From Labrys monachus (lineage in GTDB: Bacteria; Pseudomonadota; Alphaproteobacteria; Rhizobiales; Labraceae): a DNA stretch of 64,000 bases. The stretch is from NCBI RefSeq assembly GCF_030814655.1, contig NZ_JAUSVK010000001.1, forward strand, positions 2,065,501-2,129,500, given 5' to 3'. Below are positions 1,372 to 6,944 of the stretch, one piece after another. Position 1 is the first letter of the stretch. Each line of letters starts with the position of its first letter. The notes below the pieces were generated by a model. It searched no databases and was not told the origin of the DNA. It was given only the letters and a program-made list of their open reading frames with translations. The position numbers and the translations under genes were made by a program.

Positions 1372-1734
1372 CGATCCCCCGATACCCGGTGCGCATCGTT
1401 CCCGAGAGCAAAATGCGTTCAAGCAGGTGCGGATCACCAATTGAACGCAGTGGTGCCAAAAGAATTTTGCGGTTCATGGTGGTTCGATCTGAAGGCAGGG
1501 CGTCCCACGAGGCCTCAGCCTATCCGATCGACCTGTCAAATGCCTGTCAAGGTTGAGCGAAAGCCGGGCCACAGCCGTGGCGCATGACGGCTTTCGCCGC
1601 ATTCGGACAGTCCTATGCGAGCCGATCCGCGGCGGCGGCAACGGCCTTGGATATCGAGCCCTTCGTGATTCCTGGCTTCAATTGCCGCTGCTTCGCGACG
1701 TTCGTGTTTATCTCTACTCAACAAGACGGTCAGA
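1372..1734. other. Divergent intergenic region, kinase / cytochrome c'
   Basis: No convincing gene lies here. The region holds the divergent promoters of the sensor kinase and the cytochrome c' operon and includes the CTGTCA direct repeat at 1533-1549, which is listed separately. I see no terminator or structured RNA. Confidence 0.6.
1533..1549 (+). promoter_or_regulatory. Probable response-regulator operator (CTGTCA-N5-CTGTCA)
   Basis: Two direct CTGTCA hexamers have an 11-bp period, the geometry used by OmpR-family regulators. On the other strand this reads TGACAG-N5-TGACAG. The identical pattern, in the same orientation relative to its gene, is found at 6188-6204 upstream of the ArnT-like glycosyltransferase. 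The site lies about 185 bp before the cytochrome c' start and about 160 bp before the divergent kinase start. Both sites are followed shortly by GCGAAAG. Binding by the regulator at 6264-6944 is inferred. Confidence 0.6.
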
Positions 1735-2130
1735 ATGCAGAAACATCATGGTCTCCTCGGCAAATATCGACCCTACACCATCGCCGGTCTCGCGGTCCTC
1801 GCCTTGACCGGACCTGCCCTGGCGCTGTCGCTCAAGGGCCTCATGCGGCAGATGTCCGACAATACCAGCGCGGCCAAGGCGGCCTTGTCCAGCTTCGACG
1901 CGCGGACCGCGGAAGCCGTTCTGCGCCGCTACGCGGCCGATGCCCGCGAAGGCAAGACTCTCTTCGCCAGCGGCCAAAGCGCAAGGGATCAGGACATGCG
2001 CGCACGCTTCGACAGGATGGCCGCCGCCGCCGAACCGCCGGGCCGCCAGACCCTGGACCCGGCTTCGTTCCGCAAGGCGTTCGTGGCCGTCGTCACCGAA
2101 TGCAAGACCTGCCACAGCGCGCACAAATAG
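1735..2130 (+). CDS. Cytochrome c' (class II c-type cytochrome)
   Basis: Small periplasmic haem protein of 131 residues. It starts with a signal peptide (hydrophobic stretch at about residues 15-31 ending ALA). The single haem motif CKTCH sits at residues 123-127, only a few residues from the C-terminus, as in class II cytochromes with a four-helix bundle. Such proteins carry electrons or bind NO, CO or O2. It is followed 36 bp later by a cytochrome b561 gene, and a GtrA gene follows that, so the three probably form one operon. The CTGTCA repeat upstream suggests control by the local two-component system. The family is clear; the partner and function here are inferred. Confidence 0.85.
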   Translation: MQKHHGLLGKYRPYTIAGLAVLALTGPALALSLKGLMRQMSDNTSAAKAALSSFDARTAEAVLRRYAADAREGKTLFASGQSARDQDMRARFDRMAAAAEPPGRQTLDPASFRKAFVAVVTECKTCHSAHK

Positions 2131-2155
2131 AGCGCCCGACATGATTTCCGATGAC

Positions 2156-2161
2156 AGGAGG
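2156..2161 (+). promoter_or_regulatory. Ribosome binding site deciding a TTG start
   Basis: A perfect AGGAGG lies five bases before TTG at 2167. It supports that non-ATG start for the cytochrome b561 gene, since there is no ATG with comparable spacing. Confidence 0.7.
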
Positions 2162-2166
2162 CTTGC

Positions 2167-2925
2167 TTGAACAAGCATGCGACAACGTATGAGCCCATCT
2201 CCAAGCCCACGAAGGAGCGGCAGGGGAGCGGCAGGACTTCGACCAAGGCCAGGACGGTCCGGGCCTGGGATCTTCCCACCCGCCTGTTCAAATGGTCGCT
2301 GGTCGCCCTGATCGCGACGGCGTGGATATCGAGCGGCTTCGCCGATCCCGACATGACCGTGCACAAGGCGGCCGGCTACGGCATTCTCGTCCTGCTGATC
2401 TATCGCCTGCTGTGGGGCATCTTCGGCGGGTCGACGGCGCGTTTCTCCACTTTCGTGCGCTCGCCCGCCTCGGCATGGTTCTATCTGCGCCTGCTCCGGC
2501 AGGGGCGCGCGAAGCCCTATCTCGGACATAACCCCGCCGGCGGCCTCATGGTGATCGGCCTCCTGCTCGGATGCTCGGTCCAGGTGCTGCTGGGCCTGTT
2601 CTCGAGCGACGGCGTCACCGCGGCGGGTCCCTTCGCCGGAATGGTCGGCGATACGGTCGCCGGCTGGGTGGCCGAGATCCATGCCGCCTGGTTCTACTTC
2701 GTCATCCTGGGCCTGGCGGGCCTCCATATCGCGGCAAACCTCTATTACCAGTTCGTCAAGCGCGACAATATCATCGGGGCGATGATCACCGGCCGCAAGG
2801 ACGTGCGGCCCTATGTCGACGGGCGTGAAGCGCAGGGCGGTTCGCTGGCCGTGGCCGGCATCTGCCTGCTGGTGGCCGCCGGCGTGGTCTACGGCGCGGT
2901 GGCGCTGTTCGGCTCCTCCGTCTGA
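2167..2925 (+). CDS. Cytochrome b561 family protein (di-haem membrane cytochrome)
   Basis: Integral membrane b-type cytochrome of 252 residues starting at TTG behind a perfect AGGAGG. After a charged 30-residue tail comes the typical WDLPTRLFKW entry into helix 1. Four or more hydrophobic segments follow, with histidines placed as haem ligands (VHKAAGY, GHNPAG, IHAAWFYF, GLHIAANLYY), then a cytoplasmic tail and one more C-terminal helix. Members pass electrons between the quinone pool and soluble c-type cytochromes, so the neighbouring cytochrome c' is the obvious partner. It lies between cytochrome c' and GtrA in one operon. Confidence 0.85.
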   Translation: MNKHATTYEPISKPTKERQGSGRTSTKARTVRAWDLPTRLFKWSLVALIATAWISSGFADPDMTVHKAAGYGILVLLIYRLLWGIFGGSTARFSTFVRSPASAWFYLRLLRQGRAKPYLGHNPAGGLMVIGLLLGCSVQVLLGLFSSDGVTAAGPFAGMVGDTVAGWVAEIHAAWFYFVILGLAGLHIAANLYYQFVKRDNIIGAMITGRKDVRPYVDGREAQGGSLAVAGICLLVAAGVVYGAVALFGSSV

Positions 2926-2936
2926 GCGCCGGCTTC

Positions 2937-3368
2937 GTGCCCCTTTCGAACAGATCGGCCGTCCGCGCGTCCGGGTCCACACCCGGCCGGCGGCGGCTGA
3001 TCTCATTCGCGATCGCCGGCACCCTCGGATTCATGGTCGATGCCGGCGTCCTGACGGGCCTTCTGCATCTGGGCTCCGATCGGCGGCTGGCCAGGCTGGC
3101 GTCCTTCGCATGCGCGCTCGTCGCGACGTGGCTGATCAATCGCTCGACGACCTTCGCCGACCGGGCCGGCGCCCTCAGCCTCGCTGAATTCATCCGCTAC
3201 GCCGGCGCCAGTTCGGGTGCCGCGGTTGTGAATCTGGGCGTCTATCTCGCGCTGACGTCCGGCTGCGACGTCTTCCGCCGCGAGCCGGTCATCGCGATCG
3301 CGGCGGCGACGGGCCTGTCGATGTCCCTGAATTTCTGGAGCTATCTCCGGCTGGTCTTCGCCCGATAG
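2937..3368 (+). CDS. GtrA-family membrane protein (polyprenyl-P-sugar flippase)
   Basis: 143 residues starting at GTG, 11 bp after the b561 stop. It has four hydrophobic segments and family features such as GTLGFMVDAGVL, INRSTTFADR and FIRYAGASSGAAVVNLGVY. GtrA proteins are thought to flip undecaprenyl-phosphate-linked sugar across the inner membrane, working with a GtrB-type transferase and a GT-C glycosyltransferase. Both of those lie just downstream on the opposite strand (3417-4472 and 4510-6060), so the complete three-part lipid or O-antigen modification set is present. It converges on the glycosyltransferase gene, 48 bp away. Confidence 0.8.
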   Translation: MPLSNRSAVRASGSTPGRRRLISFAIAGTLGFMVDAGVLTGLLHLGSDRRLARLASFACALVATWLINRSTTFADRAGALSLAEFIRYAGASSGAAVVNLGVYLALTSGCDVFRREPVIAIAAATGLSMSLNFWSYLRLVFAR

Positions 3369-3416
3369 GGCGGTCCCGACGGCCGGAAGCCCCACCCGCG
3401 GCCCATGCCGTGCCGC

Positions 3417-4472
3417 TCACAGATCGTTGGCGGCCGGATAGAACACGATGTCGTCGTCCGGCATGAGGCGGTGGTTCATCCGTGCGTCCCGCGCGGTCCC
3501 GCCCGGCGCCACGGGCTGGGCTGCAAGACCGCTCTCCGGCCTGAGGCCGACCGACCGGTCGACGATGAAGAGCGGCCTCGCCCGCACCTCGTCGAATATC
3601 CTGCCGACATACTCGCCCAGTATTCCCATGAAGAGGAGCTGGATTCCCAGCAGGAGGGACGACATCAGGAAGAGCATGCCGGCTTCCGAGGGAGCGCGAT
3701 GGTGCAGCACATGCCGGGCCAGCGCCTCGCCGCCGAGGATCGAGCCGAGCGACAGGGACAGCAGGCCTGCATAGAGGCACAACCGCAGCGGCGCCTTGGA
3801 GAAGGCGAAGAAGCTGTCCAGAGCCAGGCCGAGGAGCTTCGGAAAGCTCCATTTCGAACGGCCCTGCGAGCGATGGCCGTAGTGGAAGGGTACGCAGATC
3901 GAGCGAAAGCCGACCCATGAAAACAGGCCGCGGCTGAAGCGGTTCTTCTCCGCCAGTCTCCGGAAGGCATCGACCGGCTTTCGCCCCAGCAGCAGGAAAT
4001 CCGTGGCGCCGTCCGGCAGCGGTACCTTCGAGAGGCGCGCGAACAGCTGGTAGAAAAGCACCGAATAGAGCCGCCGGAGCCAGCCATCGGTATCCCTGTC
4101 GAGACGTTGTCCGAAAACGACCTCATAGCCCTCGCGCCAGCGCTGGATGAAGGCGGGGACCAGTTCCGGCGGGTGCTGGAGGTCGGCGTCCATGATGATG
4201 ACGGCGTCGCCGGGCGCGTAAGCGAGGCCGGCGGCGATGGCCTGTTCCTTGCCGAAATTGCGGCTCAGGGCGATCGCCGAGATCCGCTTGTCGGCCTCGT
4301 GGAACTTGCCGAGATAGGCGAATGTCCCGTCGGTGGAGCCGTCGTCGACGAACAGGATGGTCCAGTCCACCCGCGCCGGCTCCAGGCTGCGTTCCAGGCG
4401 GGAGACCAGTTCCTCCAGGCCGCCTCTTTCATTGAGGACCGGGATGACAATCGTGACGAGTGGCTTCGACAT
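3417..4472 (-). CDS. Family 2 glycosyltransferase, GtrB/ArnC-like
   Basis: 351 residues from the ATG at 4472. The N-terminal GT-A domain shows VTIVIPVLNE, DDGSTDGT and the metal-binding DADLQHPPE, followed by SRNFGKEQAI and the GRSKWSF segment. Two C-terminal membrane helices (about residues 225-250 and 260-290) anchor it, as in GtrB, ArnC and DPM1. These enzymes load a sugar from a nucleotide donor onto polyprenyl phosphate at the cytoplasmic face. The gene follows the ArnT-like gene by 37 bp on the same strand, so the two are co-transcribed. No UDP-Ara4N synthesis genes are present, so the sugar is not necessarily aminoarabinose. Confidence 0.88.
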   Translation of the reverse strand: MSKPLVTIVIPVLNERGGLEELVSRLERSLEPARVDWTILFVDDGSTDGTFAYLGKFHEADKRISAIALSRNFGKEQAIAAGLAYAPGDAVIIMDADLQHPPELVPAFIQRWREGYEVVFGQRLDRDTDGWLRRLYSVLFYQLFARLSKVPLPDGATDFLLLGRKPVDAFRRLAEKNRFSRGLFSWVGFRSICVPFHYGHRSQGRSKWSFPKLLGLALDSFFAFSKAPLRLCLYAGLLSLSLGSILGGEALARHVLHHRAPSEAGMLFLMSSLLLGIQLLFMGILGEYVGRIFDEVRARPLFIVDRSVGLRPESGLAAQPVAPGGTARDARMNHRLMPDDDIVFYPAANDL

Positions 4473-4509
4473 TCCAACGGTACCGATCGGGAGTGAGCGT
4501 GACAACGGT

Positions 4510-6060
4510 TCAGTTCTGACGGCGAAGAAAGGCGCCGGCCCGATTGCCGGGAGGCAGGAGCAGATAGGCGATGCGCAGCGGCTCGGCACGGTCCGCCCTT
4601 GACCAGATGAACGTCTCCTGGCCGAAGATGCTGGCCGGCGAGGCGGTCTCGAGATCGGCGACCTGTGCCGGCTCCGAGCCCGCCCGCCACACCACCAGCA
4701 GGCCCTTTTGCTCGACGGTGTCGGCCGTGATCCACGGCGCTTCGCTCGGATCGAGCTCCGTGAACACGCGGGCCTGGGGCAGCGGGTCCGCGATCAGCCC
4801 GGCGATCCACGGGTCGCCGCCGACGACGGCGAGCGGCGCGCCGGTCTTCGCCCGCCACAGCGCCTCGAAGCGCGAAGCGATCGCCGCCTCCGGCCACAAG
4901 GCCGTCGACCGGGGCTGGGCGGCCATGCTCTGCCAGATTTCGGTTGCCGGCAGGGCCAGGGCGAAGAGAACCACCAGGCCGAGCGCCGAAACCGCCAGAT
5001 AGTCGAAGGCGCGCGCAGTCAATCGGCTGCCGAGCAGACCGACGACGACGAGGCCGACGAGGTTGTACATCGGTGCGGCCCAGCCGGCATTGATGTCGCC
5101 TCTCAGCGAGGCGAGCGCGACGCATGCCAGCGGCGCGACTCCCACCAGGAGCAGGAAGATCCACCTGCGCCGTTCGAGCGTGAACGGACCGGCTGTCTGC
5201 TCCCTGCCTCGCGCTGCGAATAGGACGACGCCGATCAGCACGAAGAGGGCGGCGTTGTCGCCGATCTCCTTGGCTATGAAGAAGAGGGGATTGTGGCGCA
5301 GGCCCGCCGATTCCGCGCTCATATATTTCAGCGGCTGGAAGTCCAGGGCCCATAGCTCGTAGAGGAGGGGGCAGACCAGCAGGACGAAGACGGCCAGCGC
5401 AAGCCAGGGACCGATGCCGGCAAACCGCGCGCGGGCCTGCCGATCCGCCAGCAGCCAGGCCAGGCAGGCGAGGAGCAGCAGGCCCGTCGACAGCTTGGCA
5501 TACATGCCGAGCCCCGCCGCGGCCGCCAGCGCCAGCCACCAGCCGGGACGGTCCTGCCCGGACGCTCGCCACAGGCACCAGGCGATCGCCGCCCAGAACG
5601 GCATCTGTGCGACGTTGTGGTCGAACTGGACCGTGGGCCAGGTGAAGAAATAGCAGCCGGCGAGGAACAGGGTACCGGCTGCGGCGTGCCGGCCGCCGAC
5701 GAGATCGCGGCCGAGCAGAAAGACGAAGATGTAGGTGACGCAGACGAAGATCTGCGAGACGAGATAGGCCGGCCAGCCGATGCCGCCATACAGGAAGCGG
5801 CTGAGGCCGAGGCACCAGGCCGGCAATTGCGGATGCTTGTAGCTCAGCACGATCCATTCGCGCGCCCAGCCATAGCCTTCGATCACATTGCGCGGCAGGG
5901 CGCTGCGGCTGAGGGCCGGGACGAGCGTCCAGAACAGGAGCTGCAGGAAGCACAAGGCAAGGACGGCCGCCGTCGGCGTCAGAAGCCCGGATCTGGCCAA
6001 GGCGGCGGCCCGGAAAGGGGCCGGCGCCGGCTGGGCTGCGGCAGGAGGGATGGTGGTCAT
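4510..6060 (-). CDS. GT-C membrane glycosyltransferase (ArnT/PMT-like)
   Basis: 516 residues from the ATG at 6060 (MTTIPPAAA); an in-frame start at 6216 exists but adds an unconserved stretch across the promoter. The protein is very hydrophobic, with about 11-13 membrane segments. It carries the family layout of a first large periplasmic loop with acidic residues (YGWAREW, DHNVAQ) and a C-terminal soluble part. ArnT and PMT enzymes move a sugar from polyprenyl phosphate to lipid A, glycan or protein in the periplasm. With GtrA and the GtrB-like enzyme it completes a three-component system. The acceptor is unknown. A regulator-type direct repeat lies 128 bp upstream. Confidence 0.82.
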   Translation of the reverse strand: MTTIPPAAAQPAPAPFRAAALARSGLLTPTAAVLALCFLQLLFWTLVPALSRSALPRNVIEGYGWAREWIVLSYKHPQLPAWCLGLSRFLYGGIGWPAYLVSQIFVCVTYIFVFLLGRDLVGGRHAAAGTLFLAGCYFFTWPTVQFDHNVAQMPFWAAIAWCLWRASGQDRPGWWLALAAAAGLGMYAKLSTGLLLLACLAWLLADRQARARFAGIGPWLALAVFVLLVCPLLYELWALDFQPLKYMSAESAGLRHNPLFFIAKEIGDNAALFVLIGVVLFAARGREQTAGPFTLERRRWIFLLLVGVAPLACVALASLRGDINAGWAAPMYNLVGLVVVGLLGSRLTARAFDYLAVSALGLVVLFALALPATEIWQSMAAQPRSTALWPEAAIASRFEALWRAKTGAPLAVVGGDPWIAGLIADPLPQARVFTELDPSEAPWITADTVEQKGLLVVWRAGSEPAQVADLETASPASIFGQETFIWSRADRAEPLRIAYLLLPPGNRAGAFLRRQN

Positions 6061-6187
6061 GGCATTGTCGAACCGGCATTTCCGAAGAGGACCGCCGCAG
6101 CGGTCAGACAAATCTACAGAAGCCGGTGATGGCAAATCGCGGGCAAATTGATGAGATTGGCCACAATCGCCGGGTTTATCCTTTCGC

Positions 6188-6204
6188 TGACAGCGAGCTG
6201 ACAG
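6188..6204 (-). promoter_or_regulatory. Probable response-regulator operator (CTGTCA-N5-CTGTCA)
   Basis: TGACAG repeats at 6188-6193 and 6199-6204 on the plus strand read CTGTCA-N5-CTGTCA toward the ArnT-like gene. This matches the site at 1533-1549 in sequence, 11-bp period and orientation. Downstream on the coding strand come GCGAAAG and an A/T-rich GGATAAA that could serve as a -10 region. Confidence 0.6.
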
Positions 6205-6263
6205 CCCCCTCGACATCGGAGGGCGACGCTGTTCGCGAGCGAAAGGGGGCGGCGGGCCGGCCG

Positions 6264-6944
6264 CTAGTCCGGCTGCTTTTCCCGCAGGAGATAGCCGATG
6301 CCGCGGATCGTCTCGATCTCGACCCCGAGGTCATAGGGCAGCAGGCGGCGGCGCAGGCGCGAGATCGCCAGTTCGACGGCGTTCGTCGAAATCTCGCTGC
6401 TGAATTCGGACAGCATCGTTTCGATCGACTGCTTGGATGTCACGCGCCCGGCGTTGCGGAGCAGCAGCTCCAGAACCGATCTTTCGCGCGGCGCGATCGA
6501 CAGGGATTTCTGATCCGCCGTCACATTGCCGCTGGCCGGATCGAAGGCGAGGCCGCCGACGGCGATCTGCTCGGCATAATGGATGGCGCTGCGCCGCAGC
6601 AGGGCCCGGCAGCGCGCCATCAGTTCGGTGTGGTTGAAGGGCTTGACCAGATAGTCGTCGGCGCCGCCGTCGAGCGCCGCCACGCGGTCCTCGATCGAGC
6701 CGCGGGCGGTGATGACCAGGATGGGCGCGTTGAAGCCGCCGTGGCGCAGGTCCCGGATCAGCGCCAGGCCGTCGCCATCGGGCAGGCCGAGATCGACGAG
6801 CGCCAGATCGTAGGCGACCGCCTCGATGGCCTGGCGGGCGGCCGCCACCGTCTCCACGCTGTCCAGCCGCCAGCCGGCGAGATGGACGCTCTCTCCCAGC
6901 AGGTCGCGCAGACGCGCGCTGTCTTCAACCAAAAGCAGTCGCAT
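6264..6944 (-). CDS. OmpR-family response regulator, QseB/PmrA type
   Basis: 226 residues from the ATG at 6944 (MRLLLVEDS). The receiver has the acidic pair in VEDS, phospho-acceptor Asp51 (LALVDLGLPDGDG) and Lys101 (YLVKPF). The C-terminal winged helix shows LSIAPRERSVLELLL and the usual ending ETIRGIGYLL. Family members bind direct repeats with an 11-bp period, which matches the two CTGTCA sites here. The cognate kinase is probably the one at 40-1371, since no other QseC-type kinase is in the window. The upstream spacer to the dehydrogenase is 155 bp, so it probably has its own promoter. Confidence 0.92.
   Translation of the reverse strand: MRLLLVEDSARLRDLLGESVHLAGWRLDSVETVAAARQAIEAVAYDLALVDLGLPDGDGLALIRDLRHGGFNAPILVITARGSIEDRVAALDGGADDYLVKPFNHTELMARCRALLRRSAIHYAEQIAVGGLAFDPASGNVTADQKSLSIAPRERSVLELLLRNAGRVTSKQSIETMLSEFSSEISTNAVELAISRLRRRLLPYDLGVEIETIRGIGYLLREKQPD

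Follow-up and report, generated by a model that had tools for sequence, protein, structure and literature searches.

A conserved CTGTCR direct repeat as candidate operator of a split PmrA/TctD-type two-component system in Labrys monachus

Within the OmpR family of response regulators, PmrA (BasR) governs targets that modify the envelope, while UzcR of Caulobacter is an envelope/metal regulator of an alphaproteobacterium. The Pho box of E. coli is built of direct repeats with an 11-bp period, CTGTCAT being the most conserved motif, according to the consulted part of PMC4415409. On the protein side, Arg201 of PhoB touches a guanine and Asn196 of PmrA is named as its counterpart (relevant passages of PMC3973317). 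A PepSY protein encoded beside a two-component pair has been presented, in the excerpted account of PMC12714742, as a module type occurring across several phyla. Our literature search found no paper on a system composed of PepSY, b561, regulator and kinase, and none on a CTGTCA direct-repeat regulator in alphaproteobacteria.

The locus considered here lies in a 64,000-nucleotide stretch of the L. monachus genome (the window). It begins with a minus-strand gene of a sensor histidine kinase (40-1371; start set at the ATG at 1371, the frame being open from 1440), which is above the cut-off for HATPase_c and under it for HisKA. An operon on the plus strand encodes a cytochrome c' (1735-2130; PF01322, Cytochrom_C_2) with a CxxCH motif close to the C terminus and, as judged by eye, a likely signal peptide, followed by a cytochrome b561-type membrane protein (2167-2925; PF01292) and a GtrA-type membrane protein (2937-3368; PF04138), a probable flippase of lipid-linked sugar. 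It converges in the middle of the locus with a minus-strand operon encoding a GT39-type (PMT_2) membrane glycosyltransferase (4510-6060; PF13231) and a GT2 glycosyltransferase (3417-4472; PF00535). The latter stayed under the NCBIfam cut-offs of both PgfS (273.3 bits, cut-off 500) and PRK10714 (167.4 bits, cut-off 529) and is probably a polyprenyl-phosphate sugar synthase. The GT39-type gene had been called ArnT-like in the first-pass annotation, a name that proved too narrow, as Pfam places the protein only in the wider PMT_2 family and the NCBIfam search at E 0.001 returned no match, no curated ArnT model included. The locus is closed by the minus-strand gene of an OmpR/PhoB-family response regulator of the PmrA/TctD subgroup (6264-6944; recognition helix TNAVELAISRLR). 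Pfam detected no PepSY protein among the eight window proteins scanned (short frames lay outside the scan) and no tricarboxylate transporter among the window genes scanned.

Two repeats of the form CTGTCA-N5-CTGTCA, equivalent to TGACAG-N5-TGACAG on the opposite strand, precede the two operons. Putative operator 1, CTGTCAAATGCCTGTCA on the plus strand (1533-1549), lies in the kinase/cytochrome c' intergenic region, 185 bases before the cytochrome c' start codon; putative operator 2, CTGTCAGCTCGCTGTCA on the minus strand (6188-6204), lies 127 bases ahead of the start codon of GT39, and GATAAA starts 7 bases past its second half-site. The TGACAG reading accordingly falls on the minus strand at 1533-1549 and on the plus strand at 6188-6204. 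These repeats had been described as identical, with an 11-bp period, and as situated in two divergent promoter regions; the half-sites are identical indeed, while the spacers differ, and divergence applies to the first region (1372-1734), the second one (6061-6263) being located between the stop codon of the minus-strand regulator gene and the start codon of the minus-strand GT39 gene. It was correctly noted that the repeats have the same orientation relative to both operons, CTGTCA reading toward each of them, and that they lie between a kinase and a regulator encoded on the same, minus, strand. In the window, no site precedes the regulator gene itself. No sigma-70-type promoter was recognised at either repeat, and the scan for promoters and terminators performed at chance level.

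The exact TGACAG-N5-TGACAG repeat occurs in the window only at these two positions and in the whole 6.92-Mb genome in four copies, the backwards pattern being absent; the looser CTGTCR-N5-CTGTCR gives 10 genome sites, and its backwards pattern two. That two unrelated repeats arose here by chance, with no regulator behind them, is very hard to credit, since a frequency of four exact copies per 6.92 Mb predicts about 0.003 copies in 4.7 kb, where two were found, and since they sit at a locus where relatives keep the motif (see below). This explanation would draw on the absence of a clear excess at two mismatches, where the five sites of the window are unremarkable (shuffles gave a mean of 2.34 and at least five sites in 11 of 100 cases), and on the position of some of the 10 genome sites within reading frames that were called as genes.

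The regulator possesses a receiver domain (PF00072) and a Trans_reg_C winged helix (PF00486), both above cut-off, and thus belongs to the OmpR/PhoB family. Its initial designation as QseB-like did not hold, as it is not nearer to QseB than to other members: the NCBIfam scores were 174.4 bits for PmrA (NF007928, cut-off 330), 173.1 bits for TctD (NF012023, cut-off 337) and 155.3 bits for QseB (cut-off 345), all far under the equivalog cut-offs; the score for the QseC equivalog, 78.7 bits, was likewise under its cut-off of 475. The helix pattern NA[VLI][ED]L-x-[VIL]-SRLR is present in 29 of the 30 proteins comprising the regulator and its relatives, SRLR in all 30, and the full pattern in none of the 16 other OmpR-family regulators examined in this genome. 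In our own alignment the Arg of SRLR takes the place of PhoB Arg201 and PmrA Asn196, a position in which it would match CTGTC rather than CTTAA. SRLR or GRLR also occurs in several further regulators of this genome, hence the Arg residue alone does not set the site.

The arrangement of the locus was compared with that in related bacteria. Among 397 genomes drawn from the order, the regulator was found at E 1e-58 in 29, including this genome; the other 28 genomes provided 29 relative loci (G345 has two), and 13 distant loci (23-35% identity) from the contig search with the regulator were left out. A kinase homologue directly follows the regulator in all 29 relative loci, so that the window holds a split pair, as had been suspected from the look of separated partners, and the kinase (40-1371) is predicted to be the cognate partner of the regulator (6264-6944). 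A b561 homologue is encoded within 1.5 kb upstream of the regulator in 23 of the 29 loci, often preceded by a small frame; two of these frames were scanned, and both proved to be PepSY_2 proteins. Taken together, these data indicate that PepSY-b561-regulator-kinase is the usual form and the window an exception. The kinase itself has a periplasmic C-x3-C motif in 27 of 29 aligned rows, the window included (the alignment omits L093; the script count was 26/29, the L087 frame being fused), and this conservation hints at a metal or thiol signal. The gene following the kinase encodes a rubrerythrin-VIT1 protein in L085 and a TerC protein in L082, neighbours which hint at a metal link.

Among the five genomes of the genus, two encode the regulator, and b561 was found in this one only, the four others giving no match at E 1e-8. 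Besides the regulator and the kinase, synteny extended only to a b561 match in the case of G027 and to a single 28% match in that of G004. Homologues of GT39 were located at 13 relative loci, where GT39 and GT2 occur together in four cases and the whole set of GT39, GT2 and GtrA in one (L072); such groupings make it plausible for the two operons to share a single type of operator. At these 13 loci there was neither a regulator match nor an exact site, two of them having a 2-mismatch site, so the box does not travel with GT39.

An exact CTGTCR-N5-CTGTCR repeat was found within 1300 bp upstream of the regulator gene in 19 of the 29 relative loci, representing seven genera and four families (nine of these loci come from one genus), versus none in 50 Markov resamplings. 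When spacers from 0 to 20 were scanned upstream of the regulator, exact matches appeared at spacer 5, plus one at spacer 11. With spacer 5, none of the 39 shuffled hexamers matched any locus exactly, against 13 loci for CTGTCG and four for CTGTCA; at one mismatch the shuffled hexamers matched 0.56 loci on average (maximum 4), against 19 and eight, respectively. The reversed-motif column overlaps the real motif in the relative loci and was left out as a control. Allowing up to two mismatches, sites were present at 26 of the 29 loci and in 11 of the 14 genera; the contribution of chance at this level is not small, since 20 resamplings averaged 9.2 loci and reached at most 14, and one shuffled hexamer matched 19. 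Twenty-two of the 26 sites fall between -960 and -815, a clustering that is not expected from chance. No exact copy was detected at the loci of 16 other OmpR-family regulators of this genome. As for orientation, 22 of the 26 relatives that have a site show YGACAG reading toward the operon, the reverse of what is seen at the two targets in the window, and the window-like orientation occurs in four (L082, L098, L099 and L103); at the 16 exact sites with YGACAG toward the operon the next ATG, usually the PepSY start, is 56-68 bases on.

Conservation of the repeats in orthologous promoters, which the first-pass annotation had named as a check of its proposal of one regulon around the regulator, is thus observed, exactly in 19 and with up to two mismatches in 26 of the 29 loci, and together with the adjacency of the pair in relatives it lends support to that proposal. 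On these comparative grounds we consider it probable that both repeats are operators of the regulator encoded at 6264-6944, controlling the cytochrome c'-b561-GtrA and GT39-GT2 operons.

The association has its limits among both close and distant relatives. The congener G004, which has the closest regulator (74% identity) with the same helix, contains no site with up to two mismatches within 1300 bp upstream, and the same applies to L083 and L101, where a site lies at -2607 and a 2-mismatch site behind the kinase, respectively. In L093 an exact CTGTCR-type repeat is situated at +1997 from the regulator start, behind the kinase and before a methyltransferase gene, which suggests a further target in that genome. 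An out-of-sample set of 385 genomes of the class yielded 22 more loci, of which 21 lie outside the order. None of the 22 had an exact site upstream, and five had a 1-mismatch site: four loci of one genus, with the helix GSNALEVLVSRLR, and L204, whose regulator is 57% identical and which combines b561 upstream with a site of the usual orientation at -936. The remaining 17 had no site upstream, most of them having other helices, yet L223 lacks a site despite its helix NAVELYISRLR. This pattern indicates that the box goes with close orthologues and that the helix alone is no predictor.

A different reading of the same repeats is that they are Pho boxes, through which PhoB, encoded elsewhere, would induce the two operons during phosphate starvation, a state in which sugar-modified lipids may take the place of phosphate. 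The Pho box, as outlined in the consulted part of PMC4415409, has the same 11-bp period and the CTGTC core in common with them; a PhoB above the family cut-off is encoded in this genome; the repeats have the orientation toward the cytochrome c' and GT39 operons that would be expected of a Pho box; and two of the 10 CTGTCR-N5-CTGTCR genome sites are Pho-linked by place. One of the latter (L122, 1829-1845) precedes a kinase gene that is itself located upstream of pstS, and it faces a gene read as ppk2; the other (L129, 1938-1954) lies before the gene preceding the second pstS and is matched by a box in G004 (L182). For the frames around the Pho-linked sites, phoR, ppk2 and MFS are names of our own reading. 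For comparison, nine Pho boxes were picked by eye, with a search pattern that did not require T at position 7, from 15 pstS-upstream regions (13 fetched and two of this genome), after dropping L179, which repeats L177, and L172, L180, L181, L183 and L184, which had no accepted box. The local class was composed from the 29 loci, three of them without a site, by thinning 26 sites to 18.

In the first half-site, position 7 is occupied by T in all nine chosen Pho boxes, whereas the window sites have A and G there, and G or A is found in 16 of the 18 thinned local sites; by this feature neither window site belongs to the Pho boxes. The weight matrices favoured the local class by +13.6 bits for 1533-1549 and +10.9 bits for 6188-6204. 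Leave-one-out assignment was correct for 17 of the 18 local and eight of the nine Pho sites, both samples being small, the misplaced ones being local L082 and Pho L129. The latter, situated at this genome's second pstS, scored +6.5 toward the local class when left out of training, so a matrix score as such leaves room for PhoB; a site inside a reading frame (4290817) reached +9.7. Apart from the scores, the exact motif accompanies the regulator orthologue in seven genera, mostly in an orientation unfit for a Pho box. The involvement of PhoB is made less likely by these facts, and we regard it as rather unlikely. A fourth exact repeat of this genome (575410; L128, 2011-2027), intergenic by our gene calls, scored +10.3 bits toward the local-regulator class and is a possible further target.

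It could also be supposed that the two sites are bound by a different member of the PmrA/TctD subgroup, the local regulator having other targets. Two congener regulators with the helices NALELLVSRLR and NAVELYIARLR also adjoin a CTGTCA repeat; with a repeat of this kind beside such TctD-like proteins, the box is not confined to the orthologue considered here. In this genome, though, the characteristic helix is absent from the 16 other OmpR-family regulators that were examined, and we hold the participation of another regulator to be improbable in a high degree.

Returning to the local regulator as the probable ligand, the system might operate as follows. The kinase (40-1371) would phosphorylate the regulator (6264-6944), a dimer of which would bind head-to-tail to half-sites (C/G)CTGTC(A/G) 11 bp apart, as PmrA and PhoB do, and would presumably activate both convergent operons; feedback on the kinase is conceivable, as operator 1 lies in the region common to the kinase gene. 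In relatives, the usual form would be a single PepSY-b561-regulator-kinase operon with the operator about 56-68 bases before the first start codon, while in this species a cassette separates the regulator from the kinase, each cassette operon carrying one putative operator. In the predicted lipid-linked sugar pathway, GT2 would charge the carrier, GtrA would flip it and GT39 would transfer the sugar. Since the cassette joins membrane/periplasmic electron transfer with this pathway, its likely output, evoked by an envelope signal, is surface or lipid modification together with redox handling, and we infer co-induction of redox and surface-sugar functions.

A bolder version, in which the cassette split the pair, put both convergent operons under the pair's box and left them open to both PhoB and the local regulator, seems to us doubtful. 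Its basis is that the box differs from the Pho box mainly at one base per half-site, so that phosphate starvation and an envelope signal could co-drive the operons; if true, the same surface-glycosylation and electron-transfer genes would answer both regulators. With the local regulator as the preferred one, an uncharacterised PmrA/TctD-type system present in 29 of the 397 sampled genomes of the order gains a conserved candidate operator, a criterion is suggested for telling this box from the Pho box, and candidate targets can be named (cytochrome c'-b561 and lipid-linked sugar transfer) in a species where the pairing of sensor and regulator is no longer apparent from their position. Should this reading be true, calling every CTGTCA repeat a Pho box would mis-assign both operons.

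Compared with the described systems, the regulator resembles PmrA in belonging to the OmpR family and in that its best two solved sequence matches are BasR chains (8jo2 and 4s04). The PmrA box likewise has two head-to-tail half-sites five bases apart, but these are CTTAAG and XTTAAT in the relevant passages of PMC3973317 and CTGTCR here, and the regulator is far under the PmrA equivalog cut-off. From PhoB it is set apart by its score with the PhoB model, 145 bits where the cut-off is 296.2. TctDE is similar by its family score, nearly equal to that of PmrA, and by the congener TctD-like regulator with a similar helix and an adjacent repeat; it differs in that the local regulator is under the TctD cut-off and that no tricarboxylate transporter is encoded by the genes scanned. 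In the congener G001 the repeat CTGTCAGCGACCTGTCA (L131, 3467-3483), with the same core in G002 (L035) and G003 (L023), lies between a TctD-like regulator-kinase pair and a gene which we take to be TctC; this repeat is likely a TctD operator kept in three congeners. In G004 a repeat (L130, 3574-3590) lies in the region common to another TctD-like regulator and a neighbour gene, presumably TerC. UzcR shares the OmpR-type architecture and the alphaproteobacterial host, but a UzcR-type site is ruled out, the motif published in the consulted part of PMC8963506, CATTAC-N6-TTAA, being different from CTGTCR-N5-CTGTCR. Finally, modules of the DbfQRS/BqsRS type are matched by the relatives, in which consecutive genes encode a PepSY_2 protein, b561, regulator and kinase; the PepSY component was recognised in both relative proteins scanned, but not in any of the eight window proteins. 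The window departs from them in that cytochrome c' precedes b561 and a glycosylation cassette splits the pair, and while the regulation itself is probably of an ordinary kind, this rearrangement is probably the distinctive part.
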